Part shown: one piece after another, positions 30,273-64,000 of the stretch
Position numbering within the stretch: position 1 is the first letter of the stretch
Layout of the letters: each line of letters opens with the position of its first letter
Source: Prorocentrum cordatum
Taxonomy: Eukaryota; Sar; Dinophyceae; Prorocentrales; Prorocentraceae
NCBI GenBank assembly: GCA_963575745.1
Contig: CAUYUJ010012514.1
Span: 57,501-121,500, forward strand
DNA: 64,000 bases
Direction: 5' to 3'
Position numbers and translations under genes: made by a program
The notes under the pieces: model-generated
Seen by the model: only the letters and a program-made list of their open reading frames with translations
Databases searched by the model: none
What the model was told of the DNA's origin: nothing

Positions 30273-30617
30273 TTGGGCGCCGCGCAATGGGGGGGTCATG
30301 AATAGGGGGGTGGCGAACGTGGTCCGAAAAGGCACCCAAACGGTACCTAAACGAGCCCCCTGGGGCTCTGGAGGGGCCCGAAAGGGGCACGAAAGGGGAC
30401 CTTTTTTGACCCCCCCATTTGCAAGGGCGCCCTCGAGGGCGCGAAGTTATTCGCGCTTCGCGCTTCGCGGTTCGGCTCCGATTCCTCCTCATCCTCCTCT
30501 TCTCCCCTTGGAGGCGGCGCGAGAGCGCGAAGTTATTCGCACTTCGCGCTTCGCGCGGCGCGAAGCGCGAAGCTGGGAGCCCTTGCATTTGTGACCCCCC
30601 CATGAAGCCACGCCCAA
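30273..30617. mobile_element. Imperfect TIR element containing a GCGCGAAGTTATTCGCGC repeat
   Basis: TTGGGCG and ATGGGGGGGTCA near 30,273-30,298 are inverted at 30,591-30,617 with the same internal spacing and mismatches between. Inside, the palindrome-like string GCGCGAAGTTATTCGCGC occurs at about 30,459 (and with one change near 30,525), separated by a CCTCCTC tract. DNA closely related to this interior flanks the large LTR element (45,891 and 63,920 onward), so it marks a repeat family. Confidence 0.6.
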
Positions 30618-36100: not shown

Positions 36101-38557
36101 TGCTTACCTCGACCTATCCCTCGCGCGTGGTTCGACGACATCAGTATTCGCATTGTGGGAAGCAGAAATCAGATCACCACGGCCACGGTCGAGAGCACAC
36201 AGGCACTATTCCTGGCATTGGGAGAACAAGGGCTAAGATTGGCAGATAAAACTACGTTGCTGGCGACAAGCTACACCGATGCAAAGAAGATTCAGAAGCA
36301 GCTCAAGACGGCAAATGTGACCATCAAGATCAGCACCGAAGGACGGGACCTGGGCGCGGACAGAGCTGTACGAGGCACCACCACCAGACCGACGCATGGA
36401 GCACGCTGGAAAGGAGTGCGAAGACGGCTTGGAGCGGGTGGCAGGAAACTTCGACGGCTACGAGTGCGCAAGCGAGCAGGAGTCACACAGCAGGGAGCCA
36501 TGACATCATTAAAGTACGGCACGGCGCTCCACGGTATGTCCCCCGCAGCTCTCCAACTCGCACGGCGCCGATATGCACAAGCGCTCAGAGGACCATGGCC
36601 AGGGCGTTGTCTAACGACATGCTTAGCAGTGGAAGGTACGGACCCAGCCTACACAATCATGAAGGGCCAGTTCAGTCATTGGTTCAGTTGCTGGAGTCAC
36701 AGTCCCGACCTCCGCGAGCAAGTAAGACGAGCTTGGCCGATAGTATATTTTCGACTACTCCGACTACCAGAACACAAAAGATGGCGACAGAGGCGAGGAC
36801 CTGTGGCATCACTTATTCTGGCGTTGTGGGAGATTGGATGGGACTCACGCGGACCTGACATCTGGCTGGATCGTGACGGAAACCAATGGAAGTTCCCGCT
36901 TCACGGCGAGCAAGGAGACCCAACCGACATCCTGGACACGTTGATGATGGACGTATCCCTACTCCTATGGCGTAAAGCAGCAGAACACCACAACGGCGGA
37001 GGCCTCGAGCGAAGTGGAGCAGATATCACGGACCTCAGGCGACATCTTGAATGGCCACTACGACGCGGCAATTATCAAGAGTACGGTGCGCTCCTGATCG
37101 CGACGTGTGCAGGAACATGGACAAGAGCTCGGAAGAAGGCATGCTCTGGAGAAGGATCGGCAGACTGTGAATGCGGACACGAAGAGACGGACTACCACAG
37201 GATATGGGGACAATGCGGTGCACGGACAAGTGACAAAGCCTTCGACACCACCGACCGACTAAAAGCTCGGGCGGAACACGGACACGAAGCAGTACCTGCG
37301 TTTTGGCTGAGGGGTATAACCCCACGAGCGTGGTCAGTCCCACCCGATTGCGACACGGAGGAGCAGGCCAACAACTTGGGCGAGTGCCTCCAAGAGGGGC
37401 GCATCACCACGGAGGACAGCTCCCCGATCGTGGCGTACGGAGATGGTTCTGGTGGGAAGAACAGCGCAGATTGGCGTTTCCGACGGTGTGGCTGGGCATG
37501 GGTGCGACTGCGGCAGCAAGGCGACGACTACGAGCTCGCAGCTGGGCAGTTTGGACCCCTGCCAGGCCGGCGCCAAACCAACAACAGAGCGGAGCTGTGG
37601 GCTCTCCTCAGTTGCTTACGAAGTACGGCAGGGGCCCTGCACTTCTGGACGGACAGCGAGGTGGTGTACAAAGGTTGGCGCAACAGAAGGTACGAGAAGC
37701 GCAGCGAAGTCGGCACCAACGGCGACCTGTGGCAGCAGATCGGGCAGGAGCTGGCGATTCGAGGCGGAGTGGAAAGTATACAGTTGCACCACATCAACAG
37801 CCACCTCTCCTGGGAGGACGCGGAGGCTAAAGGGTTCCCTCGACACGCTTGGTACGGAAACGGCCAAGCAGATCGCTTTGCCGCCGCAGCCGCAGAGGAC
37901 CACGACATAGACACCGCGCAGATGGGTTGCTACGAATGGGTCAACTCGACGGCAGCTCTAGTACGGCAAAGGATTATTGCAGCCGCAAAAGACCTCATCC
38001 AGCGACGGCCAGCCGACGGACACGAAGTACGGGCACAAAGAAGACAACAGCGGCAAGAGGCGAACAAACAGATACGACAGCGGCGGGACTACCTGGCAGA
38101 CGGACCACCTGCACCAGTTGGGAGAAGGCCACCGACCACACATCGACTCGCACGACCAAGAAAAGGCAAAGGGTGGAAGTGTACATGCTGTGAACAGAAG
38201 GTCGACAAGCACACCCCCTTCCAGACACTCGTGAAGTGGTTCGAGGACGGCTGCCAAGGGCCGCCACCAAAAGAAGGCACGGAGTTGGAACAAAACGGAA
38301 TGATAGCACACGCCTCACACCGTCTCATCTTCCTGCGAGCGGAGAAGCGTTGATTCTGCAAGGAGTGCGGCGCCACCTCCACGGAGTATATCTCGGACAA
38401 GATGAGGAGCGAGTGCAGAGGCAAACCGAAGTACAACAGCCTCAAGTACAAGCTACTGAACTGGCTCAAGAAGGCAGCGGAGGAGGAGACCGAGGAGACA
38501 GTGGCTGATTGCGATGCGGATACCGAGAACGCCCAACTGGCCCGCTCCTCGGGGTAG
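33140..38557 (+). pseudogene. LINE ORF2: endonuclease, reverse transcriptase, RNase H
   Basis: Domains in order are as follows. APE-type endonuclease (about 33,185-33,915): ALQETHL with catalytic Glu at 33,293, ICGDVNCEF, and SNIDYALVN. A 500-residue linker in the next frame (33,930-35,450). Reverse transcriptase: MVMPKPSKGDRALALLPQLF, motif A LLADIEKFYDSL (Asp codon 35,854), motif B SILAGSRHANNVAK, and motif C WFDDISI (36,131). RNase H with YGDGSGG (37,436), NNRAELWAL, WTDSEVV and NGQADRFA, giving the D-E-D-D set. A C-terminal zinc-like WKCTCCEQK is followed by FCKECG. Frame changes occur near 33,910 and 36,010, and a TGA at 38,351 precedes about 67 further codons in frame to TAG 38,555. All catalytic motifs survive, so decay is recent, but this copy cannot make the full protein. 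Confidence 0.9.
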
Positions 38558-39872
38558 GGCACATGTGCGACTCAGAGTACCAGCCCTGCAACGCAGATGC
38601 TCATTCGTCGCCATGCTGCTGGATCAAGAAAAACTGCCCCAGGTGGCACGCGCTGCTCGCCCGCAGCCGAAAGGCCATCGAGGGTTGAGGGTACCGACCG
38701 CCTGGGGAGTCAGAACGCTGCGGCCAGATGCAGGCCACGAGCGGCGTCGGCGAGAGTAGCCAGAAGACGGAGAAGCCGACCACAACTCCCCGACGCGAAC
38801 ACGCTCCTGCAGCAGGCCATCAGGATGCAAATACGAAGTACACTCGCCATCGAGGAGGACGAAGCGCCGCTCCTCCAAGCCGATGAAGACCCTCGGCCTG
38901 CTCACCCACCAAAGCCCGAGCCTGAAGCTGGAGCAGACCGAGGAGGCCCACCCTCGGGCACCCCCACGTCGGGGGCGACCCTCGAAGAGGGCTCGGGCGC
39001 TGCGACGACGCGGTCCTCTTCGGCCAGCCCGACGGCGGGAGGGAGACCGACCCCGAGGGCCCACGCGCCCCTGCGCGTGGGCCCGCTCCCTCCAGTGGAA
39101 GCAGCAGCACGGCCAGACGGCGAACCACGGCTCCGCGCGCCTCCGCACGACGCGCGCGGAGAAAGGGCGGCCTCAGGGCGCGGCCCTGGACGACGGCTGA
39201 AGGCCCAACTGGCCCGCTCCTCGGGGTTGGGCACACGTGCGACTCAGAGTACCAGCCCTGCAACGCAGATGCTCATTCGTCGCCATGCTGCTGGATCAAG
39301 AAAAACTTCCCCCGGGTGGCACGCACTGCTCGCCCGCAGCCGAAAGGCCGTCGAGGGTTGAGGGTGCCGACCACCTGGGGAGTCAGAACGCTGCGGCCAG
39401 ATGCAGACCACGAGCGGCGTCGGCGAGAGTAGCCAGAAGACGGAGAAGCCGACCACAACTCCCCGACACGAACGCGCTCCTGCAGCAGGCCATCATGATG
39501 CAAATGCGAAGTACACTCGCCATCGAGGAGGACGAGGCGCCGCTCCTCCAGGCTGACGAAGACGCTCGGCCTGCTCACCCACCAAAGCCCGAGCCTGCAG
39601 CTGGAGCAGGCCGAGGAGGCCCACCCTCGGGCACCCCCACGTCGGGGGTGACCCTCGAAGAGGGCACGGGCGCTACGACGACGCGGCCCTCTTCGGCCAG
39701 CCCGACGGCGTGAGGGGGGCCGACCCCGAGGGCCCACGCGCCCCTGCGCGTGGGCCCGCTCCCTCCAGCAGAAGCTGCAGCACGGCCAGACGGCGAGCCA
39801 CGGCTCCGCGCGCCTCCGCACGACGCGCGCGGAGAAAGGGCGGCCTCAGGGCGCGGCCCTGGACGACGGCTC
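38531..39872. repeat. Tandem duplication of the LINE 3' end (672-bp unit, two copies)
   Basis: The unit starting GCCCAACTGGCCCGCTCCTC at 38,531 recurs at 39,203. Identity is high throughout, with offsets of 672-673 bp at both ends. The unit includes the last nine codons of ORF2, so the duplication arose from a LINE tail. Long frames within the copies are GC-rich shadows. Confidence 0.93.
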
Positions 39873-45890: not shown

Positions 45891-45895
45891 CGAAG
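45891..45895. repeat. Target-site duplication CGAAG (left)
   Basis: CGAAG directly precedes TGTG of the 5' LTR and is repeated at 63,920-63,924 after the 3' LTR. Confidence 0.95.
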
Positions 45896-46092
45896 TGTGA
45901 ATAGAACCCGTGTAATACCCTCATATATACTCCTTATCCTCACCTCTCCTGCGTCTGGCCGTTTGGGCTCAGGTATTGGGACGGATCGATCATACCTTTG
46001 ATCGTGCAGGAGGGAAAGACATCCATCTATCCCTCCTTCCCTCTACCAACGGATCAGGGGTTCTGTGCCCTTGTACTTCAACCCCATGCACA
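45896..46092 (+). repeat. 5' long terminal repeat
   Basis: 197 bp, starting TGTGAATAG and ending CATGCACA. It differs from the 3' LTR at six positions, all transitions. It contains an internal short inverted repeat around GGACGGATCGATC and CTTTGATCGTGC. Promoter elements cannot be assigned; dinoflagellates lack a canonical TATA box. Confidence 0.97.
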
Positions 46093-46101
46093 TGTTATCA
46101 G
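46093..46101 (+). promoter_or_regulatory. Primer-binding site, initiator tRNA-Met type
   Basis: TGTTATCAG immediately follows the LTR. It differs by one base from TGGTATCAG, the complement of the 3' end of initiator tRNA-Met used by many copia elements. Confidence 0.8.
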
Positions 46102-46157
46102 CCCTTTAAAGATCACTGTTCATCGAACCCCGCGTCGCGACCTCGCACGCGGCCTCG

Positions 46158-48880
46158 ATGGAACCCAAGCGGCGCATGCGCCGTAAGGGGTCCATCGGGG
46201 CCTCGCGTCCGAGCTCTCCGACGGCGCGACGGCTCGGTGATGAGTTGGAGAGCCTTAGTGCGGACTGTGTTCGTGTCCCGGGCACCCCCCCCCCCCCCCC
46301 AGCTCCGACGGACCCGAGGCGCGACTAGCTGCTGAACTTCACCGCAGTGCCGCCCGCGGGGGGACAGGAGAAGGAGTAGGAATAGGGAGGAAGGAGTTTC
46401 ACACGCCTACCTTCGATCCTCCATCTCCTCCCCAGTCGGGAGCAATCCCAATTGCGTCAGGCGAAAGCCTCACTGGTCATGATAATCCAGGGCGCTTTCG
46501 CGCTAACCGCCGATGGACCTCAGGTGCTGGCACCCCCAGCCCTGCGACCGTTCCTGTTGCGGAGCACGTAGCCACTTTCGAGGAACTCAGTAGACCAGTG
46601 ACGGCGCAGCCGCAGACGCAGTACCCCAAGGTTTCATCGGATGAGACACCACACGCACGGTCCTAGTCGCAGCTCGTCCGCGCGCAACCGTCGTGGGGCC
46701 CCAGGCCCACACGGCGAGAGTAGGTCGAGCCCGCGCACTGCCTCTCAGAGGCCATGCATTCCCCGTGAGAGGGTGCAGAGGGAAGCTGACGCCCCCCACC
46801 TCTCCATCTCAGACGACCAGCTGGCGGAAACGTCCGCCGCAGGTGAAATAGCAGAGCTCAGAGGCCAGGTTGAAACCTTCGTGTCCAGGTAATACTCTGG
46901 ACTACTGCAGAGCGTTCAGACGAACGCTGCCAATACCGCAGCCATACGCCACGATCTTGACGGCGCCCTTGGGATCATCGATTCCAGGATTGCCGAAGAT
47001 CGACGCATCATAGGCGAGCTGCAGTACCAGGTTGATCGCGAGGTGTCATACTCAGGTGAACGAACGGCGATGGTCGAGAATCTGCGCCACTACCTAGCGC
47101 AGATGGAGCAACAGCTTGTGCTCGTACGAGACACAGGCGTTTCAGCAGTCAGGATCCTCCATGATGAGATCCACGACCAGCTCCGCAACCGACCGCCACC
47201 AGCCGAGGCCGCCGACCTTGGCGACGTTCAGTCTCAGATCAACGATCTTCGATCCCACATAGACCACACTACGGCGACGCTTCGCAACGAAGCACACACC
47301 AACTCGTCGAACCTGATCGATATGTTGCAACGTACTGAGAGAGTCATCACTCAAAGGTTTGATGCGACCAACGCTGTCGTGCAGCCACTCGCTAACCGGA
47401 TCTCTGACATCGAGCAGCGTTTTCCTGACGTACAGGACGCCCTGGCAGAGTTGCGTGTCGGACGAGCCCAGACTGATCAGCTGGGTTCTCCTCCCACGGT
47501 TTACGATTTCGCCCGCCTCACTGACAGGTTGCAGGAGGTCGAGAAGGCGGCGGACCACGCGCAGTTGGAGCTCTCCCAGGTTATTCGTGAGAGAGATACT
47601 GAGAAGGTACGTGTTGAGGGGCACCTCGCACGTCTGGAAAGCGAGCTGGAGGCACAAAGCGCCCGTCTCCGAGCATTCGAGCAACGACTTGATCGGCACT
47701 CACAACGTTCTCGGGGTACTGATGAGTACACGCGCCAAAAAGGTGGCCCAAATACACGAAGACATGACGAGCTGGACGAATCAGCTGATCGACCACACCA
47801 ACGACACCGGTCCCCACCTTCGACCTGCAACCGACCTGCACAGGCCGACGGCAGCGTCCGCTGAAGCACCACAAATTTCTGCAGGACAACAACGACGTAC
47901 GTCACCAGGAGCAGCCTCCGCGGCAGCTTCTGCACAGACACGCCATGTGTCTCCTGTGCGCACAGAGCCGACTACTGACGGTGTACCGATACCCTCACAA
48001 CCACTGTCTGCGGTTTCGGTCCATACTACAACTCCCATCAAGGAGTCAGACACCGTCCGAGTCCCTGTCTTGCCTAAGATTACGCAGCTGCTCGAGTGGC
48101 AGCAAAAGTACGGAAGAACTTCGGGGCCGCCTCAGGGCGACCATCCAAAGCATATGCCTTCCTATGCGTGGCTGAACAGCCCGAGTGTACCTTCGAGGAC
48201 TTACAAGACAGTGGAGACTTGGAGAGCATCGATTGCAAACTCGCTACCGCTCTGAGCGACATCTTGTCCTCAGACTTGCGCTACCAAATCAGGCTCATCG
48301 AAACCAGAGAGCACAAAGCAGGACGCATGCTCAAAGGACGCCAGATCTACTGGCACATCCTACAGTCCTACAAAGTGACTGAGGTTGATGACGACCTGCA
48401 CGACTTCGAGCGCCTTAAATAACTGAGGATGAGAGATGAGGATTTGCAACGTTTTATCACTGACTGGGACGCTTTACTCTTGGAGCGCCGAGAAGCACCC
48501 GATCCAAAGATCTTGGAATCTCTGTTGCGTACACAGATTCGGAGACATGCCTGGATGAAACAAGACATGTACGAGTACCAGCGCATGAAGATCAGCGACC
48601 CGAATCGTACCTATGATTGGCTCCGACAGCGCGTCCTGGACGTACTGGGGCTCGAACAATTGGAGAATAATCAGAATAAGTTACGGTGCGAACATGAGAC
48701 ACGTTCTCAAGTCAATGTGTGCGCTGCCTGGAAGAAAGGCAATTGTTGCAATGGTGAACGGCGCAAGGCTTTGCATACTTTTTTCCAGGGATTGGAAGAA
48801 CAACGAATCTTCCAGAGCATCGACAGCTGGTGGCTACTCCCGCCGCAGCGTGTCAACTCCTGCGAATCACAAGAAGCCAG
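46158..48880 (+). pseudogene. gag: Gag, N-terminal, coiled-coil and capsid-like regions
   Basis: The first good start is ATG 46,158 (MEPKRRMRRKGSIGASRPSS). A 16-C run at 46,285 shifts the frame, and Pro/Ser-rich then Arg/Ser-rich sequence follows. From about 46,800 to 47,720 frame 0 is a long coiled-coil rich in Glu, Gln, Arg and Leu heptads (for example VEGHLARLESELEAQSARLR), with TAA at 46,890. The frame changes near 47,720 and 48,095. A capsid-like helical domain follows at 48,130-48,690 with TAA at 48,420; its landmarks are SDLRYQIRLIETREHKAG, LRTQIRRHAWMKQDMYEY and RTYDWLRQRVLDVLGLE. It ends in the first zinc-finger-like block (VNVCAAWKKGNC) near 48,720 before another shift. Gag would package genomic RNA into cytoplasmic particles. 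Confidence 0.8.
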
Positions 48881-48884
48881 CATC

Positions 48885-51800
48885 GAAACCATTTTGCTTC
48901 GAGTTCGCCAAGCGCAACACATGTACCAGAGGCGACAAGTGCAACTTTCCACACGTCGCGCAGTGTAGAGATTTCGCACAGAATAAGTGCCCCAAGGGCG
49001 ACAAATGCAAATACGCACAAGTCACACCTGGTGCGAAGACTCCCGGGCGAAGCCCGAGTCGACCACGCACCTCCAGTCAGGATAGCCGTGGCCGATCACC
49101 ATCCCGCGGATCAGGAAGTCAACGTTCTTCACAACGGGGGGGGGTCCGCTGCGCAAACGACTCACGCCATGGACGTGACAACCGACGCCAATGCGACCGA
49201 TCTCGTTCAACATCCAGGAGGTCTCTAGACTCTCGCAGTCAATCGAGAAGTCGATACGACAGATCTTCGATATCTACCTCCCGAGGACGAGACAACCGTG
49301 GCGGCGGACGCGGCAGCCCACGCGGTCGTGATAGATCATATGGTAGTGACAAAGGACGTGGCAGACGTTCCCCGAGCCGTGGTTCGTCCCGTGGTTCTCC
49401 CCACGCCAGAGCACGTTCTCCTGCCAACTATCGACGTTCACGCCGTTCCGACCGCAGTTACGTCATTCGTGACAAGACCCTCATGGCCAACACTAAGGTC
49501 ACTACGACATCTACCAAAACACGCCGTCGGATACGCTTCGACACACGTAATGTGGATTACTACCTACATACCGTATCTGGCAGGGCCAGATTGGCCAAGT
49601 GGAGGGAGATGCCGAATGAGGGTGACATTGTCAATGTACCACACCCGTTACCACAACGATGGTGGGATCAAAGTGCGGACGCCCTACGAGAATGTCAAAA
49701 AGAGGCACAGCTATGGTATGAAGACTTATACGACTACCGACACAACAAGGAGTCGGTGGCCACACCAACTGCGATCCGAAAATATGACGACACTGTTAAG
49801 CAGTCATCAAAGACAGCCCAGACGATGACAACGACGATGCAAGCCGACCCACCACGCTCGACTGCTGCATTGACACGATCTTGGGTTCTCGACAGTGGTT
49901 CTGCTCATCATTTTCAGGGTAAGCACGAACTGACGCAGACCGAATCGGATCGCATATCTATTCGCGAAGAGCATATTCTGGAAACCGCCAATGGCGATCG
50001 TACTGTCAACGAGCACTACGACATACGGCTACCCGAGGTTGGCTTACACAGTTCAGCCCTTGCTTTGCCAGACTGTCCATCTTTGCTATCAGTTGGGAAA
50101 TTGATCGAGGTTGATGGGTTTCGGCAGCTCTGGGATCCTGAGCTGGGCTACTTGCTTCAGGATCCGGGGGGCCAATGGTATAAGATTCCAGTCAACAACA
50201 GAGTTCCAGAATTACGACTCGACGACCTGACACTCTTACCACCACCACGTCTATGCACTTCGCCAGCACCCCGACGTCGTCAGCGTAAGCGTTCGTCCGT
50301 CCGCTGTAACGACATATGTTGGCGTTGCAAAACTACAGAGCAATCAACAACTGCAGATGAGCAACGGCCCCACATCGGGACCTGCCCCAAGAGACCACAT
50401 GTCGGAGAGGGAGGAGGAGCACGGGCCACCACGGTCGAAGAACCTCCCGACACAAACAAAGACGAGCCTAACGTGGACACATCCACCGACTCGCCTACGT
50501 CTCAGACGCAGTGTTCTCCTCCAACATGCGGGGGGCTAGCAGATACAGCTCAAGCAGATAACGACATACCGACGGAGACGCTCACACGAATGCACCACGA
50601 CAATGATCGCGTTCTTCCAAACAGACAGAAGAAACCGATTGACCCGATGCATTACATGACTCACAGTCCAAGACACCCTGACTGTGAGATTTGTTCTCGC
50701 ACGATGGCGCAGAATGCTCCGTGTCGACGACAGCGCAAACCACATCCACCGACAGACCCCGCCGACGAGGATAAAGCCTACGAAGCTTTTGTCCCGAAGA
50801 AGTTTGGTGAGGCTTTAACTGCCGACCATATCGTCCTGGCCAAAGACGATGCCGCAGACAAGCACGGCGACAAGTATGCACTTGTCGTCCTAGACAGATA
50901 CACCGGCATCTTTATGGCCTACCCAGCACTACACAAAGACGCAGCTACCACAAAGGCATCCTTTCAAGAGTTCATCGCCGCGAACGATGAGGTGAAGCAT
51001 ATCTATACAGACAACTCAGGAGAGCTTCAGAAGGCTTGCCGCCAACTGGGATGGAGACACGACACGAGTGCGCCGCATCGTCCGCAAACGAATTGATTGA
51101 TCGAGCGCATCGTCAAGATTGTCATTCTCGGTGCGAGAGCTGTGTTACATATGTCTGGTCTGGGACACGAATGGTGGAAAGAGGCCATGCAAGCCTTTTG
51201 CTGTGGACACAATTTTGTACATACATCCGCGGGCGTTGCTGCCCTCAATGAGGATCATGCCGATAAGACAGCTCATGAAATTCGCTTTGGTGAAAGCTTT
51301 CCCGGGCACTGCATGCCATTCGGTGCTCGGATCTTTTGGAAATGCCTCAACCCCGAGATTAACAACGAGACTGCGAAGTTTAAAGAAAATACTCGAGAAG
51401 GGTTATTCATGGGTTACCATTTACACTCTGGTGGACGATTGTCAGGTGACTACCTTGTCTTGGACACAGCTACATACGCCAAGAATCCTGATGGGGAACT
51501 GTGTCACGTGCACAGAGTCAAAGACATCATCATCCCTGATGGCAAGTTCACCTACCCGGTGAAAGAAGGTACTCTACGACATCATAACCCTAAGGCGCAC
51601 GACGAGGTCAAGGCATCTACCTCTCGCCCCTTGGGCGACGAACCAATGCCCGATCCTCCACTTTCCTACCCTAAAGAATGGGATGACCCGTCTATGATGA
51701 CAACGGAAGACAACGCCGCTGATATCCACGCATCGGCCTCTGAAGTTGCTGCACCAGCGCCGGAGCCCGACAACTGGGAACAGCGCGGATATTGCGTCAT

Positions 51801-51981: not shown

Positions 51982-54840
51982 GCGAGCCATGGACAGGCAC
52001 GGTTCGATTCTATGAGCTTCCAAAAATAACGCTAGATGGCAAAATGGTGGTCCGCGGCCGCGAGACACGTATGCAGACTACTACACGTCCTGATCACATT
52101 CTTCCCGAGCATTGGAAAACCCTATCTCGTGGACAACAGAAGAAGGAAATCGATTACGCCGAAGACGTTAAACGAGCTCGCGAGATTCGTGACCGAGCTG
52201 CACTTCGAGTGTGGACAAGACAGGACAAACAGGTCAACAATTTCCGTACCACTGCAGCCGGCGGACCAACATGGAATACTGTGGAACGAAGGATTACATA
52301 CGACACTGACAACGGCGCAGTCATCCGTGACGAGAACGTCAAAGGCGTGACGAACAAAGAAATACTGTATGCCAAACTACCTGGTGGGCCACGTGACATT
52401 ACTACGGTACTGTACTACCGCCAAACACCACAACAGCACGCTGGAGAAGAACGTGCTTTGGTACTTGTGGATAGTGAAGGAACCGACTTTGGGACCATGA
52501 ACCCGCTCATACGCCAGTTCACCCAGTCGGTAGCAATACCCACTATGCCACGTGCGACGACTTACACACAGGCACACAGAGACAAAATCCCCGATTCCTC
52601 ATGGGCACGCCCGGCCCTAGTTACCAGAAACCTGAGTAAGAAAGAAGTTGCCGCAGAACCACGTGCACAGGAAGCCCTACGAAAATAATACGAGAGATTG
52701 GAAAAGAAACAAACGTGGATGTTGGAGACTGTTGCAGAAAAAGCTGATATTGAGTCACAAGCTATTCGCACTGGGACGAAAGTTCATTTCTTCAATATCT
52801 TGGAACTATCTTTAGTCAAACACGAAGAACTTCCTCCTGATCTACGTAAATTCAAGGGCAGAGTGGTGGTTCAGGGCAATACAGGCAAAGATGAAACTGG
52901 TTTGGCCGCCATATTCGCCGACGCCGCTTCCAGTGCTTCGCATATTGAGGCTTCCAAACTTTGCGATGCTACTGCATTATTGCCACACTATGCGGGCGAA
53001 CAAAGTGATGCACCTGGAGCCTACGCGCAAGCACTACTATACGGCGACGGACGAATCGATCCAGTTGATAATTGGATTACCATACTTGAATGGCGACAAC
53101 CGACATCCTGGTCAAAGTACAAGAATCCAGTGTGCCGGTTACGATTGGCACTATACGGACACCCTCTTGCAGGTGTCTTTTGGGAACGAAAATGTCGTAC
53201 ATGCTTAGAAAGCGTTGGTTTCGAGCCTATTCCAGGATGGGAGTGTGTATGGAGACACAACAAACTGGGACTGATACTTTCAGTATATGTGGACGACTTC
53301 AAATTAGCCGGACCAGCTAACAATCTACAAGCTGGCTGGGATTATATCCGCAAAGGCGGTATTGACTTGGATCCACCTACTCCATACTCACAATATCTTG
53401 GCTGTGGACAACAGGCATACGAGGTGCCGCAGAATATTTTCGACAAAAGAATGTCTACCATACGACCTATGTTGCCCGTACACAATGAGAAAGATCACAA
53501 TACAGCCAAACAAGTTCGTGGAATTCGACATGATATGCTTGGTTTCACCGATCAGTGCATTGAGCGGTACCTGGAATGCGCTTCCAAGCGCGCCCAGGGA
53601 CCGGGGTCACGTCGGAAACGATCCGACTCGCCGAGGACTTCGCGATCCAAATCGCCTGCATCCTCCGGGTCGGTCGCCAGACCTACTAGTGTGCTCAACG
53701 CACGGCCGCGATCATCCAGCCCAGCAAGATCGGTCGATACGACATCTACTACAACAGATCCCATATCAGTCACATACGACGACCTACCTGACGCCGAAAC
53801 CCCTGGCATCGAGGACACCTCCTTCACCGATTCCGATTACTCCGACGAGGGCATCCTTGGCCAGGACGCGGCGAGCGTACTGATGAAGATTCTTTACCTG
53901 GCACGTTGCTGTCGTTTCGATCTTCTACATCCAGTATGTATGCTAGCCAGAGAAATTACCAAATGAAATACCACGTGTGATAAACGTCTACATCGATTGA
54001 TCTGCTACATCAAAACGACGCGCACACATTGTTTACACGGATGGATAGGTGATTCGTCAGACAAGTTATCCATCATGCTCTTCACTGACGCCTCGTTCGC
54101 CGATTGCATTACATCATCCAAATCCACTACCGGCGTCTTCGCCGCGCTTGTTGGACCTAGTACGTTCTTTCCGGTCAACGCTGTGTGTAAGAAATAAACG
54201 GTTGTGTCGCATTCATCTACAGAATCCGAGATCGTTGCTCTTGACTCAGCACTACGACTGGAAGGACTACCACTATTCTCATTCTGGGAAGCCGTGGTGG
54301 GAGTTGCCAACACATGCAAAGAGAAGAATACTTGCCTGAGTTGCCAGGGACGCGCCGACACGGCGATGTGTCCGACGTTGGCCGCCAAAAAGAAGCGTAA
54401 GCCATCGCTTCGCAAGGCGCCCCCCACAAGGGGATCTTCTCCTAGCCGTAGGCAACTACCGCTAAATACGGAGTTACTTACGCCTCCAAAGAGGCGTACA
54501 ATATCCCATGAGGGTACAGTATTGCACGTGGATCCAGAACCAGCTCAGGAGATTAGTTCTCCCAAAGTGCGTCTTATCGTCCTCGAGGATAACCAGGCCG
54601 TGATCAAAATTGCCCAAAAGGGACGTACACCAGCACTTCGTCATCTTCATCGTACTCATCGTATCAACCTGGATTGGATATGCGAGACATGCCAACTCGA
54701 ACATATCGAGCTCAAATATGTAGGTACAAAAGAGGAGATCGCATATATGATGACCAAACATTCCGAGCCGAAGAATGCAGACCTCTGGAGGGACCTCTTG
54801 GAACACTCGCTCATCTTTCCCGCTGCTCCGGTACAATGTC
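51890..54840 (+). pseudogene. pol: Copia reverse transcriptase and RNase H
   Basis: Frame 0 carries ESDFRDVWDGVSANDHRELS (51,920), a linker, TAA at 52,686, and the RVT_2-type reverse transcriptase. RT landmarks are KFKGRVVVQGN, SDAPGAYAQALL, CRLRLALYGHPLAGVFWE and the catalytic LILSVYVDDFKLAG (YVDD codons 53,286-53,297). After LHPVCMLAREITK a TGA at 53,964 replaces what is usually Trp. RNase H follows: LFTDASFADCITSSKSTTG, then TAA at 54,195, SHSSTESEIVALDSALR, EDNQAVIKIAQKGR and LKYVGTKEEIAYMMTKH. All stops in this block are one transition from Gln or Trp codons. The same frame runs straight on into the extra region with no terminator other than mutations. Confidence 0.95.
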
Positions 54841-56850
54841 CTCCAAAGAAACCATGGAAACCACTACGAGGGCCTCGGAGGCCCGACGGTTTACCTCATG
54901 TTGCAGAACCTCCAAAACTGGATGGATCCCCGGAAGTATGCAAAATATTACTTACAGAAAAAGAAAGATGGGGCGAGGTAGGATCAGAATGTGGAATGCG
55001 GTGCGTTGGACAAGCCAATCACGAGGGCATATGCGCATGCATGTACCACATTGGTGTACCAGCTGCAGCTATTGTTTCGCGCACACCTCGGTCAAGAGCA
55101 CGTTCCCCGTCCGGTAGAGATCCCCGCCATCCCCCCTCGCCTCCACAGGATACAGAGAGGTCTAGGACACTCATTGTACGTTCATGCCACAGCAATTTTA
55201 CGACTCGAGCGACAAAGCTTACAGGCATCCTGTTCGCTGCGTGCGAGGCGAAAATAAGTGAGATCGGTTCTAATCCCGATACACCCATCCACAAGATGGA
55301 TCAGGTACAGCCGCTCCACCTCATCGGCTGGCCCATCGGCTGCGACGCTGAGTACGACCCGAACGCCAAGGACGACGACCGCGTGGGCTTCACGTACCAC
55401 GCTCAAACTGGTCGCCCTCGTGATCCCGATGATGGATACATATACGTACATCAACGGCGCGCTGATCGCAGTGCAGATTTTGATCTCCGCGTACCAGACG
55501 AATCCACTATTCGAGAAATTGCCCGCTCTGCGTCCGCCGACGTCAAGAGTTGGATCTGCGAAACTGGTGGATCAGTCGGCGGCAACGCCGACTACGAGTA
55601 CAGCACGTTTACGGCTACCCCATGGCTGTCTTTCACGAGGGCTATGTGCATGCTTTCCAGCCTCTTCAATCGTAACCCGTCTGCACAAGAAAGTGTTCGT
55701 GGTTTACATGATCATTTGAACGCAGTGATCCCAGGAGCGCACCGCAAGTGCCCGCCAATGGACCTTACGACGATGATATTGAAGACGGAGTGGATGATGA
55801 TTCACAATGATTTGTCCAACATTGGCAGTGCAGCACTGGGACAATATGCCGAGGACAGCGTTCAGGATACAAAACACTACTATGGAAATGGTCTTTGTGC
55901 ATCCTCTGATGTATACAGCAATGGATTGACAACTCCATGCTATGCTCCTAAACTTGAGCGTGTAGCGATCAAGTTGCCCACACGCCCACCTGGCTTAGCC
56001 AGGACATCAGATGCATCGGGACACATCGGCCACGTTGTTGAGGATAATTTGGTCACCGACATGCGAGCATTTTCCGACATTAACCAGACAAGCAAATTTC
56101 GCCGCAAGATCAGCACATGGTTGATTGCGCGCGGAGGCTTCGGAGGTATTGGATCACACCCCAAGACGGTGGCAACACCATCCGATCGCTCAGAAGGCTG
56201 GGAGGCAATATCAGAGCACGACGAGACTATGACAAGTACCTAGCGTTGGCAACCATACAACGAGGGCAATGTCTTCTTTGGCGAGGCCCCCGCTGAGATT
56301 GACCCTGGTCTTACTCCTGGTCCTGATATTGACCCACTCGAGCTGGAACAAGCAAAGTACAGCGCTTTCTGTGGTGGTCGTTTGGTTTCTACTCTTCTTT
56401 CAGATAATGGGTGGTGTTCCCTTGTACAAGAAGATCTGGGACTTCTCTTGCACCATGCCTTCGGTCCATCAGGGCACGCATACAAATGGACCAACTTGCA
56501 CGCCGATTCAACATGGATTATGCACCCCAAGAAAGGGGCCAAGGGTGCAAAGCACAAGAAGTACCCAAGCCACGGCATTGACGAGCTCAACAATGCACAG
56601 AAGCGAGAAGATCTCGCCAAAGTATCAAATGTTGCTCTTGTACCGTTATTTATGCCGTGCCTCAATCGCGCGGAATGCATGGGTGGCGCTACCCTCGAGC
56701 ACTTGTCGACCATCATCCGCGACGACATCATGATGTGGGCATTCTCCTTTGGCAATTATAAAGAATGGTTCAGACAGAACGACACGCCGATCGGCCAAGA
56801 TTGCACTCAATTGCCAGAGGCTGGTGGAGACCCGCTATGGTATGGAAGAA
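54841..56850 (+). pseudogene. Extra region 1 of the LTR element, in frame with RNase H
   Basis: This continues frame 0 of pol. Near 54,985 is a possible zinc motif, CGMRCVGQANHEGICACMYH (CxxxC, then CxC and His). A basic Ser/Pro/Arg linker follows, then about 300 residues of globular-looking sequence (for example DYEYSTFTATPWLSFTRAMC, MDLTTMILKTEWMMIHNDLS). TAG at 56,241 interrupts it, and the frame then continues (VFFGEAPAEIDPGLTPGPDI, WIMHPKKGAKGAKHKKYP) until a frameshift near 56,840. I recognise no family. No signal peptide or membrane segment is seen, which argues against an envelope-like gene. Confidence 0.75.
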
Positions 56851-58728
56851 CTGCGTAACCAGCGCACGCAGACACAGGAGAGCCGTACCACAGCTATTCT
56901 CAACAATCAGTTTGAGCCCACCCTCGAGCAGCGCAACATGATCAAGATGATCCGCGAGGCCAGAGGCCTCATGTTACACAGCGACAATGCCTCCACCAAA
57001 AGGTGGCGTGAATTAAACGAGGTCATCTGGAGTTACTGGGCCAATGATTTTCCTGCATATGTGAAACAAAGACACTATTGCAGAGGCCTCCATGCCATGG
57101 TGGTATGGAGCGCGAATGACATCGCATGTGCCAACCGCGGACAGAACACCGTGGACATGCGTCGCCACCAGGATCGCGCACCTACTGCCGTACGTGAGCT
57201 CCAGAAAATGGAATGTGAGGGTGGCGTCCCGACGCTCATGCCAGTACACGTACAAGTGGATGTATCACGTTTTGTCGATGTGATGCAGTATTTCCGCTGC
57301 CCCACGGTCATGGGGCCTGGCAAAGCAGCACAGTGGGGCGCACACCCGAACTTTGATTACCACACGGACGATTTGATCAGGATTATGCAAAATTGTGGTA
57401 TTACGGTTCTTCCATCAGACCACTGGATAGAAGCGCACGATAGAATCACCCCACAGGCTTGGCATGCAAAGCAGAACAACCATAACATGGCGATGTTTAC
57501 GACACAGTTCTGCGACGCAGTATGCGATCGTAACTTCTGTGCTTTGATCCAGTCACTGCCCTCTCAGCCGCATCCATTCAGGCCGCCCATACAGACTCCC
57601 GTCACGGACGAGCAGGCCCACACACAGGCCAAGGAGATCATGGCGGCTCTCGGCTTCAGAGAAAGGATGACAGACGAATGGAAGAGAGACCTCAGCCTCA
57701 CGACGCTGATGACACAGACGGCAGGCGAGATGGCCCATTGTGCGTGGATGGCATCATGCGCCGATGGTACGCTGCCGGCATCACTGCCTGCTAACGCAGG
57801 CGACACAAGCGTACCTATTCCTGGAATTCCGATACGGACACCAGCACTTGATCCTCGCGAGCCGAACAAGGCTATTCCTGAAAATGATCCATTTGGTCTT
57901 GCATACGACGACTTATTCAAGTACCTCTTACTGTTGATCAACGACTACCCTGGGGCATGGGCATCCTGGGATTCAGTCGAGAAACAAGAGCTTCTCCACC
58001 CCAAGATCATCAAAACAGTTGAGGACGCACATGCTGTTACTTGGGTTGTATTTGAACAGTTTCTACAACAGATTACCGACTTGGATGGAGACGATAACGC
58101 GACCAGATCACGACTCATTGCAGAAAACAACAGGTTGACATCTCACTGCATCGGCTCTGCTGCCGAGAACGAACAGACCATCGAAGCACGCAAAACATTC
58201 TTCAGACAGAATGCACTGGATCGCGTGGCATTGGGATACGATCCTGATGTTCCGACTTCCGTGTGGCGCGCGGCGGCCGATGCGGAACAGCCAGCACCAC
58301 CGGGTCCATTGCCTGAGCCACTGCAACCTGGCCCGCAACCGATAGCCGTGCCAAAGTCATCGACTCCTGGACCACCCCTACACCATACGCCAGCAGACCA
58401 ACAGCCAGCAGTTCAGCTCCCGAAAGCCGAGGGAGTCCCGATCCCAGACGACGGCACTGACCTAGATGCTATGGAGCTGGAGGCAACTCCTGCCGACAAC
58501 GACCCTTCTCCACACGAGATGACTTTATGGTCATGGCAGGACAGCTGCGAGCGTTCTATGTACGAGGACATCAGCCAGGTCGGGATGTTCGATAACGCAT
58601 GCACTATTCGAGAGTACAAGCTGCAAACAGGCATCAAGGACGACCATCCATACGTTTCTCCATTTTTGCGGGGTACATCCGCGGTCAATGGATTCGCTTG
58701 CCTGCAAGACGACGAATGGTTCGATTAA
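56830..58728 (+). pseudogene. Extra region 2 of the LTR element, unknown protein
   Basis: Frame 1 is open for about 630 codons and takes over from region 1 after the shift near 56,840. It begins with a helical, charged block (LEQRNMIKMIREARGLML, TKRWRELNEVIWSYWANDF), continues with His/Cys/Trp-containing globular sequence, and ends with a Pro/Ala-rich linker (about 58,285-58,450) and an acidic block. It ends at TAA 58,726, after which the frame remains open. No family is recognised; the amino-acid composition is that of a real protein and the opposite strand is not comparably open. Confidence 0.75.
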
Positions 58729-61335
58729 TTGCAACATGACGACTGTGTGATTGCTCATGCTCCTGATATTGCACAATCTGGTTGCTTTCCAGAATGGAAG
58801 TGGATATCGTTACCACATTACGACGACGTACGTTATGGTCCTGAATTACTTGATGAGTGGCTGGGAGAACCCAAATACATGAGCAAAGACACCACGACGA
58901 TGTTACGCCACGAGATCCACTACAAGAAGTTCTACAACAATCAATGTCACGATCGACGTATCAACATTTGGCCGAAGACAACAGATCGTGAGTGGCGGAC
59001 CCCAAGTAATTGGAAATCCTTTCAGGAGATGGTCCAATGGAAATTTGGTGACCGTAAAAACCACATTGGGCCCTCCATGGATGCGGCCATGACGCACTTC
59101 AAGAAAGATGGTGAGAAAGATGGGCATCCCGATTGGAACGATTATTACCCGATCTTCATCATTCGTGCGTTCCAGAAACATATTGACCCGCAGAAAAATC
59201 GGATCGAGATATACGCCAAACCAATCCCTGAGGGAGGTGACCCCAGCCGTTTCGATTGGAACAGCGTTATCGCCATTCGATGTGTTGGAGGCCACAGTTG
59301 CGTCAAACCACTTTCCAAACCATGGAACATGGGCTGGGAGAGCCTACAATGGACAGACGTGAAATACCTCCACCATGGCACGACATTCCGCGATTGGCGC
59401 AACATCCTCAAGACAGGGATCATTCCAGGCTGCGTCGATCCATCTTCTCAGAGAGACAAGCATCATAAACCATCACAACGCACGGAGGCATTCTTCAGTT
59501 CCAGCACATATATAGACACTGTCCAGAAGAATCCCCACACCTCGGTAGAGTCATACAAGTTCAATCGCTACAAGAACGAGGTCGAATTGGTGATCAACAT
59601 GGAAATCGCCACAAAAGCTGGCTGCAGATTCTGGTTGGGCGCTCAAGGCGCTATTATGACAGAGGACGTGGTTCCAGCAGCGGCAGTCATCGCAATTCGC
59701 CGTCTCCAACCACGCCACGTGCACGGCCAGCAGATATGGCCGGAGGGCCCTCCCTGGGACTATCCGCCATTGGCCGCGAGACAACCATTGAGCAAGTACG
59801 AAATTTGCGCGTATCTTCCTGGAGAGGAGTTCATCGATAAACTTCCTGGGGTTACACCAGCCAACGTGGATCACGACATGGATCAGCAGTCAAGGACGCC
59901 GTCAGCATCAGCATCTTCGGCTCAGCGACCGATTGCCCCTCAGCTGGGGGCAGCCCCTGCTGGCCGCATTTCTGGCGCCGACGCCTTGGACGAACAAATG
60001 GTCCGTGCTATGATCGACGACATCGACCACAAAACAGAAGATAACGAATGGTTAATTGCTATGTCATACTGCCGAGAGGCTCTTCGACCCATTACATCAA
60101 AGATTACACAAAAAGATTGGGATCGTCGGCCTACATTTAATGATGTTCGCATGGGGGACTTCATTGTCACCGAGAATTGGGGATCTACCAATTGTTATCA
60201 TTGCGACAATCACTACCCCAAGGGCAATCACACAACCAAGGTCCTCATGAACAAGGGCCACATATACGGCCCAATCATTCATTTCGGAGTCTTTGACAAG
60301 TTCTTTGCTGTGCAAATACCTATCCTCAACTACGGTTTACGATTGGTAAACATATGGTACAATTACAAAAACATGCCTCTCAAGGGCGTTGTCTTTGCTT
60401 TACCAATTCGCGCCGACAAATGTGCCATTGACCCGACAAATATGAATACTGCCCTGGAAGGACCATCCTCATGCCGTGACAAAATACTTCAGCACAAAAC
60501 AGATGGTGATCTGCCATATCTCGGTATGCCGAGCATTAATAAGCCACGTATCCCACGTACACCGACCAGACGGCCCGCTCCTCGGACACCCGATCCCGAA
60601 GAGCTGGTGGCCACACCTGCCGAGGATACCGCTCCCGCGGACGATGGGCCCCAACAAACGGCAGGCCAATCTGCCGAACCTCTGGTTACCGTTATTGTGG
60701 ATATATCAAACATACCACTCACTGCCGAAGAAAAAGCGGCAAATGACAATACGATCGCAGATCTATCAGCAGAGATCCAAGCAGATGAGCACGTCGACGC
60801 GAGCATCCTCGACAACGTTATTGACCCGCCAGAAGATTTCCTCAATCACCCCGACTACGACCCAGAGGAGGACACAAGGTGGACCAGACAATCGTACGAC
60901 CACAGCATATACCGCTGGGTGTCGGAGCTTTTGGTAGACTCACCTATGATAAAGATGAGGCAAATCATTGAGGTGCACACTGGCGTGGACAGATTTGTGG
61001 TGGATAGATTACAGTCGTACTTACAATTTGACGTTCAATTCGGATCCAAAGCATGGAACGCAGAGACATACTATTTGGATTACAATCATACCCACAACTG
61101 GGCACGTGACTTACCGATTTGCAGTGCAGATCGCTTCTTCAAAAAGTTGGTGCACTACCTGGGCCCAGAGACCATCGAGGAGTCGACTACAGGCGTCTTT
61201 CAATGGACCTCCAAAGTGCATCAAAACATATTGCTGGACAGTATTGCGGAGCTCCGTGACTTCACAAACTATGTTATCCATCAGAATCATCCCGCACTCC
61301 AAACGTTGCGTGATCTATTTACACATTGCATCTAG
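58729..61335 (+). pseudogene. Extra region 3 of the LTR element, with Tpt1/KptA-like domain
   Basis: Frame 1 is open for 868 codons between TAA 58,726 and TAG 61,333; neither boundary looks natural. At about residues 155-330 (counting from 58,729) is a region matching the RNA 2'-phosphotransferase family block by block: KNRIEIY, VIAIRCVGGHS, YLHHGTTFRDWRNILKTGI, RTEAFFSSS, NRYKNEVELVINMEIATKAG and CRFWLGAQGAIMT. The Arg-His-Arg-Arg tetrad of that family maps to Arg184, His216, Arg251 and Arg280; the HxH stretch beside the third residue is not conserved. Tpt1/KptA uses NAD+ to remove the 2'-phosphate from spliced tRNA, forming ADP-ribose cyclic phosphate. Downstream are a Ser/Ala linker, a second globular block with CYHCDNHYPKGNH (about 60,199), a Pro-rich linker and a helical C-terminal block. 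The domain call is firm; its function in the element is unknown. Confidence 0.8.
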
Positions 61336-63033
61336 ACATTCGGCAACCCAGGCTTCCCCGTATGGACGGAGCTGGTGGAAACACCTGCCGCGCCACGTGA
61401 CCCAGGCGCGGAGCAGGACATTCCCCAGGACCCAGGCAGCATTGCATCCGCAGCTCCTGATCAAGAAACCATGGTACGGATCATAGCCGAGCAGACGGGG
61501 GTCAACCGCGAGGAGGGCGACAACGAGTCCGCCTTGCAGGAGGAGGCTCGCCGTCCCCGTACAGAAAACGCATGCCATGGTGATACTGAGGATGCGGACA
61601 ACGACACGACAGAGCGCATAGGACTGCCAGGGGAACGATTGTCTAGGATCGAGATCGAGGGAATGAGTAGATCAATCGCTTCCCGACCGAATGCTGAGAT
61701 CGACCGCGGTGCCATGGATCAGATCGGCCGCAGTCTCGCTCGTGGTCAGGCGACCCAATGGGGATCTCGTGAACATCTCACGGTTGACGGAGCCCCAGAA
61801 ACTATCCAGCATGATATCGCGCGATGTCGGAATTGCGATCGCATCTTACCCCTAGGGATCGTTACAAATGATGGTACCCTTTGTGACATCTGCTGGCAGT
61901 ACACTGTATCTGTAGGTGCTACGGGTAAAAGTACCGCCGTCCAGAGCGACCTAGCATACCTCCAGAAGCTGACCCACTGGATCAAGACGACGCTCTCCCA
62001 GGATGACATCACGAGGTACATGAGAGACGGAGCGCAAGTCATCATGACGGGCAAGCGCTCATTTCCAGGCAATGAGAAAGACACGCTGAGGAGACTGGCC
62101 AATTCCGCTAGGAAGAGGTATCAGAAGTGGGTCGACTCTGGCCGCCCTCCTGCACGCGAGTGCAGACTGATGGGCGAGGCTGAAGACGACAGACCTCTGT
62201 ACCACCCATATGCCAATCTCGTTCAACGTGTTCTCAATGATTTGAAGTTCCACCACCAAATGACAGGCGCTCGCGTTAACGTGGGCAAGAAGGCCTGGGC
62301 CGTTGAGGACATGCGCGATGCATGTGAGATCCTCGAGACCAGCATCAGGACAGGCCAAGCTGGTCGGAAGAAATGGTGGTTGAACGAAGGCAGGCTCGAC
62401 AGACGCACGCGACAGGCTCGCGGACTTGTCGCGATTGCCCTCCCCAGGGGGGATGGCACCCGTGAGAAAGTCACGCAGCGCAAGCTTGCCGCGCTTGCTC
62501 ACGAATTGTTGGGTTCTGCCTTGGGTTCCACCGACCAGAGGGGGGTTGATTCAGGGATGAGAACCGGTCCGATCGAACCTGATGCACACTCCCAACACTC
62601 TGATGATGCCATGGAGCCGCGCCATCCGCCGCCGCCGCGCCCTGCCCCTGGCGATGATGCACGGTCTAGCGCCTCTGGCGCGGATGACCACGCGCTCGCG
62701 GGGTCGCGCGGCACTGCAGCGCAGCGGCAGGATAGCGATGACAGCTACAGACCTCGCGCGAAGAGGGCGCGTACGACAGACTACGCCGCCTGGTGGCGCG
62801 ACGACCTAGAGGACAGCCATTGGGGCCTCAGGTACTGGAGCTACTACATCAACTGCTGGATCTACATCGCGCTCAACAACGACGAGTTCGTATACATCCG
62901 CGACATCCAGTACAACAAGTGGTTTCGCCACTGGATCCCGAGGACATCTTGGGGGACGTTCACGACGAGCTACGTGACGTACGATGGCCACAGGATGTGG
63001 GACCGCAGGTTCTACGAGAACGGCAACGCGTAA
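61336..63033 (+). pseudogene. Extra region 4 of the LTR element: zinc-ribbon and aromatic C-terminus
   Basis: Same frame as region 3, continuing past TAG 61,333 to a TAA at 63,031. An acidic, disordered-looking N-terminal part (61,370-61,800) leads to CRNCDRILPLG and, 15 residues after the first pair, CDICWQY: a CxxC-x15-CxxC motif at 61,825-61,893 typical of a zinc ribbon. A basic helical region follows (KRYQKWVDSGRPPARECRL), with KFHHQMTGARVNVGKKAW beyond it. A His/Pro/Asp-rich linker, a nuclear-localisation-like RPRAKRARTT near 62,751 and about 85 residues rich in Trp and Tyr (HWGLRYWSYYINCWIYIALN) complete it. The natural end of the coding region is the TAA at 63,031. No family is recognised. 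Confidence 0.75.
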
Positions 63034-63711
63034 TGAGTCGGCCGTGAGGCCCACCGCTCGAAAGGTTTGAACTTCATTATAATACAAGTTCGCCTTGAGC
63101 GGTGGCTATTATATACTTCTAGGCCAGTTCACTATACAATACAACTGGCCACACATACACACATATTTTGCGATAGCCAAGGCAGCCTCCAAAGGAGCAG
63201 CGCCAACGGGAGTCGCCATATAGACATTTTACATACATGCAACTTTTAGTGCTCATCAACACGACCTTTCGTCTGGCCAGACATTTGCTTTGATATATAG
63301 ATGCGTATCGTAACACGATCGTGTTCATCAACACGATCTCAGAATGCATATTCTTTAGAGTCTAACTCCATTGCGTTGAGAATGATCTGACAGCTGGTGG
63401 CAACACCTGCCTCGCATAGGCGAGGCAGATTACAAGTTGCTTTAACTTGCTCAGATCCGCTTTCTCCGCCCACCCGTGTCTCATTCTTCTCCGCCCTCGA
63501 GTGCCGAAGCGTTTTGGGGGGCGCACCGAGGGGGCGCCAAAGCGTGCTTGGCGAAGAAATTGGGACCCTGGGTGATCCTTCTTACCTTACCTTGCAGCTG
63601 AGGCTATACTGACTTTGCGCTCAGCTGCCTGCAGACCTGAGGATTGACGGAGTAAAAGGGTGACGGGTTCTTTTCCTCTGTTCCCGAGTCCTTCCCTCTC
63701 GGGCGGGATTC
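63034..63711 (+). other. 3' untranslated region of the LTR element
   Basis: AT-richer sequence without a frame of interest. TCATCAACACGA-type strings recur near 63,255, 63,327 and 63,340. Pairs such as TGGCCAGTT/AACTGGCCA near 63,121 and 63,142 can form a hairpin. Confidence 0.6.
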
Positions 63712-63722
63712 GGGACGGGGGG
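63712..63722 (+). promoter_or_regulatory. Polypurine tract
   Basis: GGGACGGGGGG directly abuts TGTG of the 3' LTR, where plus-strand priming is expected. A C interrupts it, so it is a slightly imperfect tract. Confidence 0.7.
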
Positions 63723-63919
63723 TGTGAATAGAATCCGTGTGATACCCTCATATATACTCCTTATCCTCACCTCTCCTGCGCCTGGCCGTTTGGGCTCAGG
63801 TATTGGGACGGATCGATCGTACCTTTGATCGTGCAGGAGGGAAAGACATCCATCTATCCCTCCTTCCCTCTACCAGCGGATCAGGGGTTCTGTGCCCTTG
63901 TACTTCAACCCCATACACA
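63723..63919 (+). repeat. 3' long terminal repeat
   Basis: 197 bp, same length as the 5' LTR and 97% identical (six transitions). It ends CATACACA. Confidence 0.97.
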
Positions 63920-63924
63920 CGAAG
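63920..63924. repeat. Target-site duplication CGAAG (right)
   Basis: Matches 45,891-45,895. The sequence after it (TTATTCGCGCTTCGCGG, then CCTCCTCGTCTTCC) continues the GCGCGAAGTTATTCGCGC repeat seen at 30,446-30,530. Confidence 0.95.
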
Positions 63925-64000
63925 TTATTCGCGCTTCGCGGTCCTCGTTCCTTCTCCCCCTCCTCCTCGTCTTCCTTTTCTCCCTTTGGGGGAGCGGCTT

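Follow-up and report, generated by a model that had tools for sequence, protein, structure and literature searches.

A Tpt1/KptA-like domain carried by a copia retrotransposon of the dinoflagellate Prorocentrum cordatum

Retrotransposons with captured cytosine methyltransferases are known from dinoflagellates, where there are hundreds of them, and from charophytes (PMC5890265). The carriers are long interspersed nuclear elements (LINE) and DIRS elements in dinoflagellates and Gypsy elements in charophytes, the charophyte Gypsy copies of the methyltransferase are reported to be under purifying selection, and abundant Copia elements of Symbiodinium are without the DNA methyltransferase (DNMT) (PMC5890265). 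In the orchid Phalaenopsis, a giant Gypsy element of 25 kb carries an AlkB N6-methyladenosine (m6A) RNA demethylase that was shown to be active, and in a screen of 121 angiosperm genomes from that study all 15 filter-passing extra domains lay in Gypsy elements and 0 in Copia (PMC9289625). Here we report on a window, meaning the whole 64,000-nucleotide stretch that was analysed, from Prorocentrum cordatum (GenBank assembly GCA_963575745.1, contig CAUYUJ010012514.1, positions 57,501 to 121,500 of the forward strand). It contains a complete copia long terminal repeat (LTR) retrotransposon, which we call family A, with a Tpt1/KptA-like domain in its coding region. Positions below are those of the window, and all stranded features lie on the forward (+) strand.

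Like the methyltransferase carriers, family A holds a captured enzyme domain, but it is a copia element and its domain has the fold of an RNA-end enzyme. With the Phalaenopsis element it has in common a giant LTR format (18 kb against 25 kb) and an extra enzyme domain of a kind that acts on RNA; it is copia rather than Gypsy, and the plant enzyme is a demethylase with demonstrated activity. Plant elements with extra open reading frames also have additional sense-strand coding region in the env position; the proteins named for them in the excerpted part of their description are env-like and others, with no RNA-repair enzyme among them (PMC7264820). Homologues of KptA are also carried by the viral genomes of gammabaculoviruses, there as separate genes of a DNA virus (PMC3230848). 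The same holds for the KptA of Erwinia/Dickeya phages, where Tpt1 is again a separate gene of a DNA virus and not part of a reverse-transcribing element. When phages were searched with tblastn, 22 records were returned, 20 of them from Erwinia/Dickeya phages (best expectation value, E, 0.1); several of the matched places are annotated as RNA 2'-phosphotransferase, and in the remaining two records the matched places stand under unrelated annotations. The tblastn search of plasmids gave no match, and the viral contigs searched with the window protein held no relative. Among the titles and abstracts listed in searches of 5.39 million open-access papers, none describes a retrotransposon with a Tpt1/KptA domain; preprints, subscription papers and repeat databases lay outside these searches.

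An earlier note on this window, written by a model from the letters alone, had proposed a Tpt1/KptA-like domain within an LTR retrotransposon, and profile and structure comparison both bear this out. The domain lies in an 868-codon frame (E3, 58729..61332) of the 3' region, past the copia reverse transcriptase and RNase H. On the whole 868-residue frame (58,729-61,335 with its stop), the Pfam profile PTS_2-RNA (PF01885) matched residues 172-312 with 27.3 bits (E 4.5e-6), above the cut-off of 26, and on 59170-59720 alone it gave 32.2 bits (E 1.4e-7; same cut-off). PHROG 5470 (RNA 2'-phosphotransferase) matched the domain at E 1.1e-5. Other searches gave less: two NCBIfam KptA models matched the domain weakly (E 0.02 and 0.039, far short of the 231 and 239 bits set as cut-offs) and left the whole frame unmatched, and a single-sequence search of solved structures with the domain returned KptA weakly at E 1, ranked below an unrelated repeat protein (0.22), while the whole frame gave no KptA-type match there. 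Our own profile, built from 49 of 103 Tpt1 loci, scored 18.6 bits on the frame; the best shuffle reached 6.2 bits (2000 shuffles of residues 1-400, of which 878 scored). A chance match was ruled out by Pfam, PHROG and the shuffles against our own profile.

An AlphaFold2 model, made with helper sequences, was compared with solved structures, and Tpt1/KptA ranked first, occupying the first 20 Foldseek rows and the first 17 VIA rows. We rejected the idea that the helper sequences alone had produced this match: modelled with these helpers, a decoy frame adopted a different, helical fold and gave no Tpt1/KptA match, even though its mean predicted local distance difference test score (pLDDT) was the higher one, at 60.9 versus 53.8 for the Tpt1-like frame. 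From Pfam, PHROG, the structure model and motifs together, the domain is placed at 58882..59700 (residues ~52-324, from SK-x5-LRH to where the NAD lobe ends), with a putative N-terminal limit. The interval 59170..59720 of the earlier note does contain the Pfam match, but the domain probably starts further upstream, at about 58882.

The element is one of many copies. When the genome assembly (4.13 Gb, 21,875 contigs) was searched with the 296-residue domain region of the window, 132 places, the window included, were scored out of 1558 candidates; they share 84-100% identity with it and are nearly all full length. A stop falls within the region at 27 of these 132 places and at none of the other 105. 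Two further copies were read as 7-kb stretches (L138 and L139) and are collinear with the window, so that the order reverse transcriptase, RNase H, domain is found in three of three copies read. A one-off capture is excluded by the 132 scored places. The earlier note had named two findings as fatal to its proposal, the lack of a significant profile or structure match and absence from all other copies, and neither was obtained. Selection was assessed over codons 171-283 in 23 copies (the window, L138, L139 and L140-L159), pooling all pairs and ignoring the copy tree: the proportion of synonymous differences (pS) was 0.147 and that of nonsynonymous differences (pN) 0.036, a ratio of 0.246, and no copy of the set has a stop. 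The family A protein was thus constrained while the family spread. With the domain at 132 scored places and bearing the mark of purifying selection, the element therefore used its protein product during its spread.

The active site was mapped by reference to the Tpt1 of Clostridium thermocellum. Its crystal structure gives the essential tetrad as Arg18-His19-Arg68-Arg121 (one passage has Arg66 for Arg68), its NAD contacts as His101 and Thr103 of the HGT motif, Arg139 and Arg140, and RNA contacts that include Ser10 and Lys11 (PMC6333775). In the window frame, the candidate tetrad equivalents are R60 and H61 (58906..58911), R174 (59248..59250) and R251 (59479..59481). Judging by motif and spacing, H216 and T218 of H216-G217-T218 (59374..59382) would correspond to the NAD-binding HGT, R280 (59566..59568) to the NAD-phosphate Arg139, and S52/K53 to Ser10/Lys11. 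The motif blocks and residues 184, 216, 251 and 280 do sit where the earlier note had placed them; its proposal of these four as candidates for the catalytic tetrad is rejected, since by the published C. thermocellum tetrad only 251 is a member. R184 corresponds to the Arg conserved in IRxxQGHS, and H216 to the His of HGT that binds NAD. R280 matches Arg139; it was also considered as the fourth tetrad Arg, a role that the C. thermocellum structure gives to R251.

Across the 23 copies, R184 and R251 are invariant, and the HGT motif is nearly so (H in 22, G in 23, T in 21). Codon 174, by contrast, is Cys in 21 copies, Tyr in one and Arg in one, the window, and at codon 280 His is found in 20 copies, Arg in two (window included) and Asn in one. 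The HxH stretch, correctly described in the earlier note as altered, has Glu and Phe in 23 of 23. Exact-context patterns were also counted; since they require flanks without a mismatch, such counts are biased towards well-preserved copies. R60-H61 reads CGC CAC at 58 of 60 places, and codon 174 reads Cys at 33 of 34, with the window as the one exception. The SKx6RH pattern at the R60-H61 site, chosen post hoc, occurs once in the 127,996 six-frame residues of the window; shuffles of residues 1-172 produced it in 301 of 200,000 cases, and the narrower SKx5[LIVM]RH in 50 of 200,000. The helix-profile score of the site was reached by 6 of 5000 shuffles. Set beside Tpt1/KptA/TRPT1 (PF01885), family A shares the fold of the NAD lobe, the IRxxxGHS block, HGT, R60-H61 and R251; it differs in Cys for the third tetrad Arg, His for Arg139, loss of HxH, GGHS where Tpt1 has QGHS, an RNA lobe longer by about 66 residues, and its location within the coding region of a retrotransposon. 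Family A has thus preserved half of the active site and altered the other half; we name it Tpt1-like, not Tpt1.

A second element family with such a domain emerged from the genome search with PF01885, in which the best 150 of 2877 candidates were scored. All 150 lie above the cut-off, 143 of them at 71-92 bits. Twenty of the 143 were fetched and are all alike, L112 sharing 87.7-98.9% identity in the longest match with the 19 others. These best genome hits were considered as copies of the window element and rejected, since none of the 20 gave a match to a protein of that element at E 1e-6 (the lowest E was 0.094); they constitute a separate family, B. Six family B stretches had no blastn match to the window element at E 1e-3, the family B pol had no blastp match to the window-element proteins at the same threshold, and the domains of the two families are 17% identical. 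Family B (L112-L137) appears as a copia-type element of about 16 kb, in which a CCHC-like knuckle is followed by a tetrad-intact Tpt1 domain and then pol. In the three copies scanned, the domain scores 84-85 bits over profile positions 4-177, and the knuckle precedes it in one frame at 18.5-18.6 bits, below the cut-off of 20.8. One copy has a RING finger after the domain (35.3 bits, cut-off 27), and two have a downstream pol region with RVT_2, at 35.9 bits, above the cut-off, and 31.4 bits, just below the cut-off of 31.6. In the two copies that were read far enough, about 16 kb lies between terminal direct repeats, whose matched length is 229 bp in one copy (99%) and 259 bp in the other (98%); a duplicated target site was not clear.

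Family B shares the whole tetrad with Tpt1/KptA/TRPT1 in the copies checked. The set consisted of 18 copies, the 20 fetched minus L122 and L123, which contain runs of N (their 4482-codon open frames were discarded as artefacts of these runs). All 18 have RH, RASQGHS, HGT and an Arg at both the third and the fourth tetrad position; pN/pS is 0.24, and one copy has a stop. This pattern suggests that family B encodes an active Tpt1. Seven places score still higher with PF01885 (L104-L110, 95.6-186 bits) and resemble the genome's own Tpt1 loci. In a domain tree of 24 selected sequences, six of these seven are spread over four branches; family B falls together with these Tpt1 loci of the genome itself at a support of 0.858 (0.732 for its grouping with L109/L110), and family A is unplaced.

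What might a Tpt1-like domain do in a retrotransposon? The reading that we favour, as plausible though short of probable, is that the family A domain is a Tpt1-like enzyme limited to the first half-reaction on the element's own ends, and that family B is ordinary Tpt1. The family A domain would bind nicotinamide adenine dinucleotide (NAD+) through its HGT motif, R60, H61 and R251 would bind RNA phosphate ends, and the ends acted upon might be those of the element's own RNA, primer transfer RNA (tRNA) or complementary DNA (cDNA). Most likely it would at most transfer ADP-ribose to a terminal or 2'-phosphate and leave it there as a cap, so that the phosphate stays; family B would be an ordinary Tpt1 enzyme sited before pol. 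A reaction confined to its first half is proposed in view of the Cys that nearly all checked copies have in place of the third tetrad Arg. In RslTpt1, replacement of the equivalent Arg (R64A) makes step 1 threefold slower and step 2 210-fold slower (PMC6333775), which suggests that the family A enzyme adds ADP-ribose to the phosphate and leaves it. A number of points weigh against a first-half enzyme. In human TRPT1, ADP-ribosylation of 5' ends is lost when any one of the tetrad residues is changed to Ala (PMC6582358), and Cys at the third tetrad Arg may accordingly mean no catalysis at all. The Arg139 equivalent and HxH are also changed in family A, and the window copy, with its Arg174, departs from a reading based on Cys. 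The RNA lobe, an N-terminal winged helix, is modelled at low confidence, with pLDDT mostly below 50 before residue 200, and some VIA rows align from residue 44-49. The R60-H61 assignment requires about 66 additional RNA-lobe residues, and three unrelated six-frame windows among 98,636 outscore its helix on a position-specific score. A free-gapped alignment matched 17 of 32 conserved columns and one of 160 shuffles matched 18; the column count was dropped as proof since a shuffle had done no worse, and 11 natural decoys matched 7-12. Activity, expression and protein are predictions throughout.

Some of these points are shared by a pseudo-enzyme, a distinctly possible alternative that for family A is nearly as likely as a step-1 enzyme: the fold would be kept for binding phosphate-bearing RNA or NAD, for instance in packaging, primer placement or particle assembly, and no chemistry would take place. 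The prevailing Cys at the third tetrad Arg (21/23), His at Arg139 (20/23) and Glu/Phe in HxH (23/23), next to the retention of R184 and R251 in all 23 copies and of R60-H61 at 58 of 60 places, would suit a domain that binds RNA ends, as would the inactivity of TRPT1 with any tetrad Ala (PMC6582358). A pure RNA binder would have no need of the NAD-binding HGT, though, and this is kept; moreover RslTpt1 R64A still performs step 1 (PMC6333775). A canonical RNA 2'-phosphotransferase that clears 2'-phosphates from ligation junctions on element or host RNA is unlikely as the general answer. It fits family B best, where all 18 copies have the tetrad, RASQGHS and HGT, the three scanned match almost the entire profile at about 85 bits, and pN/pS is 0.24, but the third Arg is missing from nearly all checked family A copies, the genome seems to own Tpt1 loci of its own, and the substrate is hypothetical. 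We consider very improbable a part in modifying or countering host defence, such as the ADP-ribosylation of host RNA or proteins. The NAD lobe is indeed related to mono-ADP-ribosyltransferases (lower Foldseek rows; PMC6333775), and DNA methyltransferases have been acquired by dinoflagellate retrotransposons (PMC5890265), but the kept RNA-side residues R60, H61 and R251 point to nucleic-acid ends. Scarcely credible, finally, is a roleless passenger, a host Tpt1 exon captured by accident. The window copy does have several stops and frame changes, and a stop interrupts the region at 27 of 132 scored places, but the other 105 are stop-free, and the 23-copy set shows a pN/pS of 0.246 and no stop.

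Returning to the first-half reading, a wider scenario can be built on it, which we regard as rather doubtful in its entirety. Two copia lineages of one dinoflagellate would have acquired Tpt1-type domains, possibly separately, at different sites in the element, family A past RNase H and family B between the CCHC-like region and pol. Family B would have kept the full 2'-phosphotransferase, while family A would have become an end ADP-ribosyltransferase that halts at step 1, its NAD-derived caps protecting or marking the ends of its own RNA or cDNA. If true, an enzyme of this kind, dependent on NAD+ and modifying ends, would be new among reverse-transcribing elements, as far as the literature was searched. 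The role of Tpt1 beyond fungal tRNA splicing is an open question, and E. coli and mice are viable in the laboratory without it (PMC6333775). Here two element families, each with more than 100 copies (for family B this counts 143 table rows, 20 of them fetched), maintain a Tpt1-type domain under selection, a natural case whose substrate could lie in the life cycle of the element itself. An RNA-end enzyme thereby joins the short list of enzymes captured by retrotransposons, and does so in copia, not Gypsy. The presence of tetrad-intact and tetrad-altered families within one genome offers a contrast open to bench testing.

The family A insertion of the window is 18,024 bp long and decayed by stops and frame changes. 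It is bounded by two 197-bp LTRs, each starting TGTG and ending CACA (TG..CA), at 45896..46092 (5') and 63723..63919 (3'); they match at 97%, with six mismatches that are all transitions. The target-site duplication CGAAG stands at 45891..45895 on the left and, in the same letters, at 63920..63924 on the right. Directly adjoining the 5' LTR is a primer-binding-site-like sequence, TGTTATCAGCCC (46093..46104), which we take to resemble the initiator-Met primer site of plant copia elements, and a purine-rich tract (63706..63722) lies ahead of the 3' LTR. A gag/pol frame (48589..51093) contains CCCH fingers at 48895-48954, a protease-like DSGS at 49891 and the start of an integrase core; in Pfam, zf_CCCH_4 scores 32.8 bits (cut-off 29) and rve 29.2 bits, below its cut-off of 32.6. 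The copia reverse transcriptase (RVT_2, 52689..53963), with YVDD at 53286, scores 28.3 bits (E 1.6e-6), below the cut-off of 31.6. The RNase H region (54198..54780, limits set by eye) was assigned from its motifs SSTESE (54213) and DNQAV (54588), which resemble those of copia RNase H; in Pfam the piece has no RNase H family match. DSGS, rve, RVT_2, YVDD and the RNase H motifs follow the order protease, integrase, reverse transcriptase, RNase H that fits copia. We consider the insertion complete because it has LTRs, CGAAG flanks, primer site, purine tract and ordered pol parts.

A further 8.3 kb or so of coding sequence lies 3' of RNase H. The frame first runs on past RNase H (54781..56855), with an in-frame stop at 56241, and is collinear in L138 and L139; it is followed by frames E2 (56734..58725, 664 codons, no family match), E3 with the Tpt1-like domain, and E4 (61336..63030, 565 codons, no family match above cut-off). 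That the frame 56,734-63,030 is coding is indicated by two stops in 2099 codons, versus 52 and 86 in the two alternative frames. Outside the Tpt1-like stretch, the 3' frames of the element have no family match above cut-off. Within E4, a zinc-ribbon-like CxxC-x15-CxxC pattern is seen at 61825-61893. At the other end, the first long frame past the 5' LTR (46893-47861) matches Baculo_PEP_C with 24.3 bits, below the cut-off of 38, and many coiled-coil families weakly; its product is probably a coiled coil. Two LTR stretches, 45953-45973 and 63780-63800, resemble the dinoflagellate spliced leader at 14 and 15 of 21 bases; when the bases of the 3' LTR were shuffled 2000 times, six shuffles reached 15/21. 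They might be left over from trans-splicing of the element RNA.

Elsewhere in the window, 12524-12544 matches 18 of the 21 bases of the dinoflagellate spliced leader, and 0 of 100 shuffles did as well. A LINE-like region at 33140-38353 has Exo_endo_phos (32.7 bits) and RNase_H (32.3 bits), each above cut-off, and no reverse transcriptase match in the three frames scanned. It is followed at 38527-39871 by a head-to-tail duplication of 673 bp with 95% identity. Directly outside the 3' LTR of family A, the 73 bp at 63920-63992 are 79% like 30442-30514.

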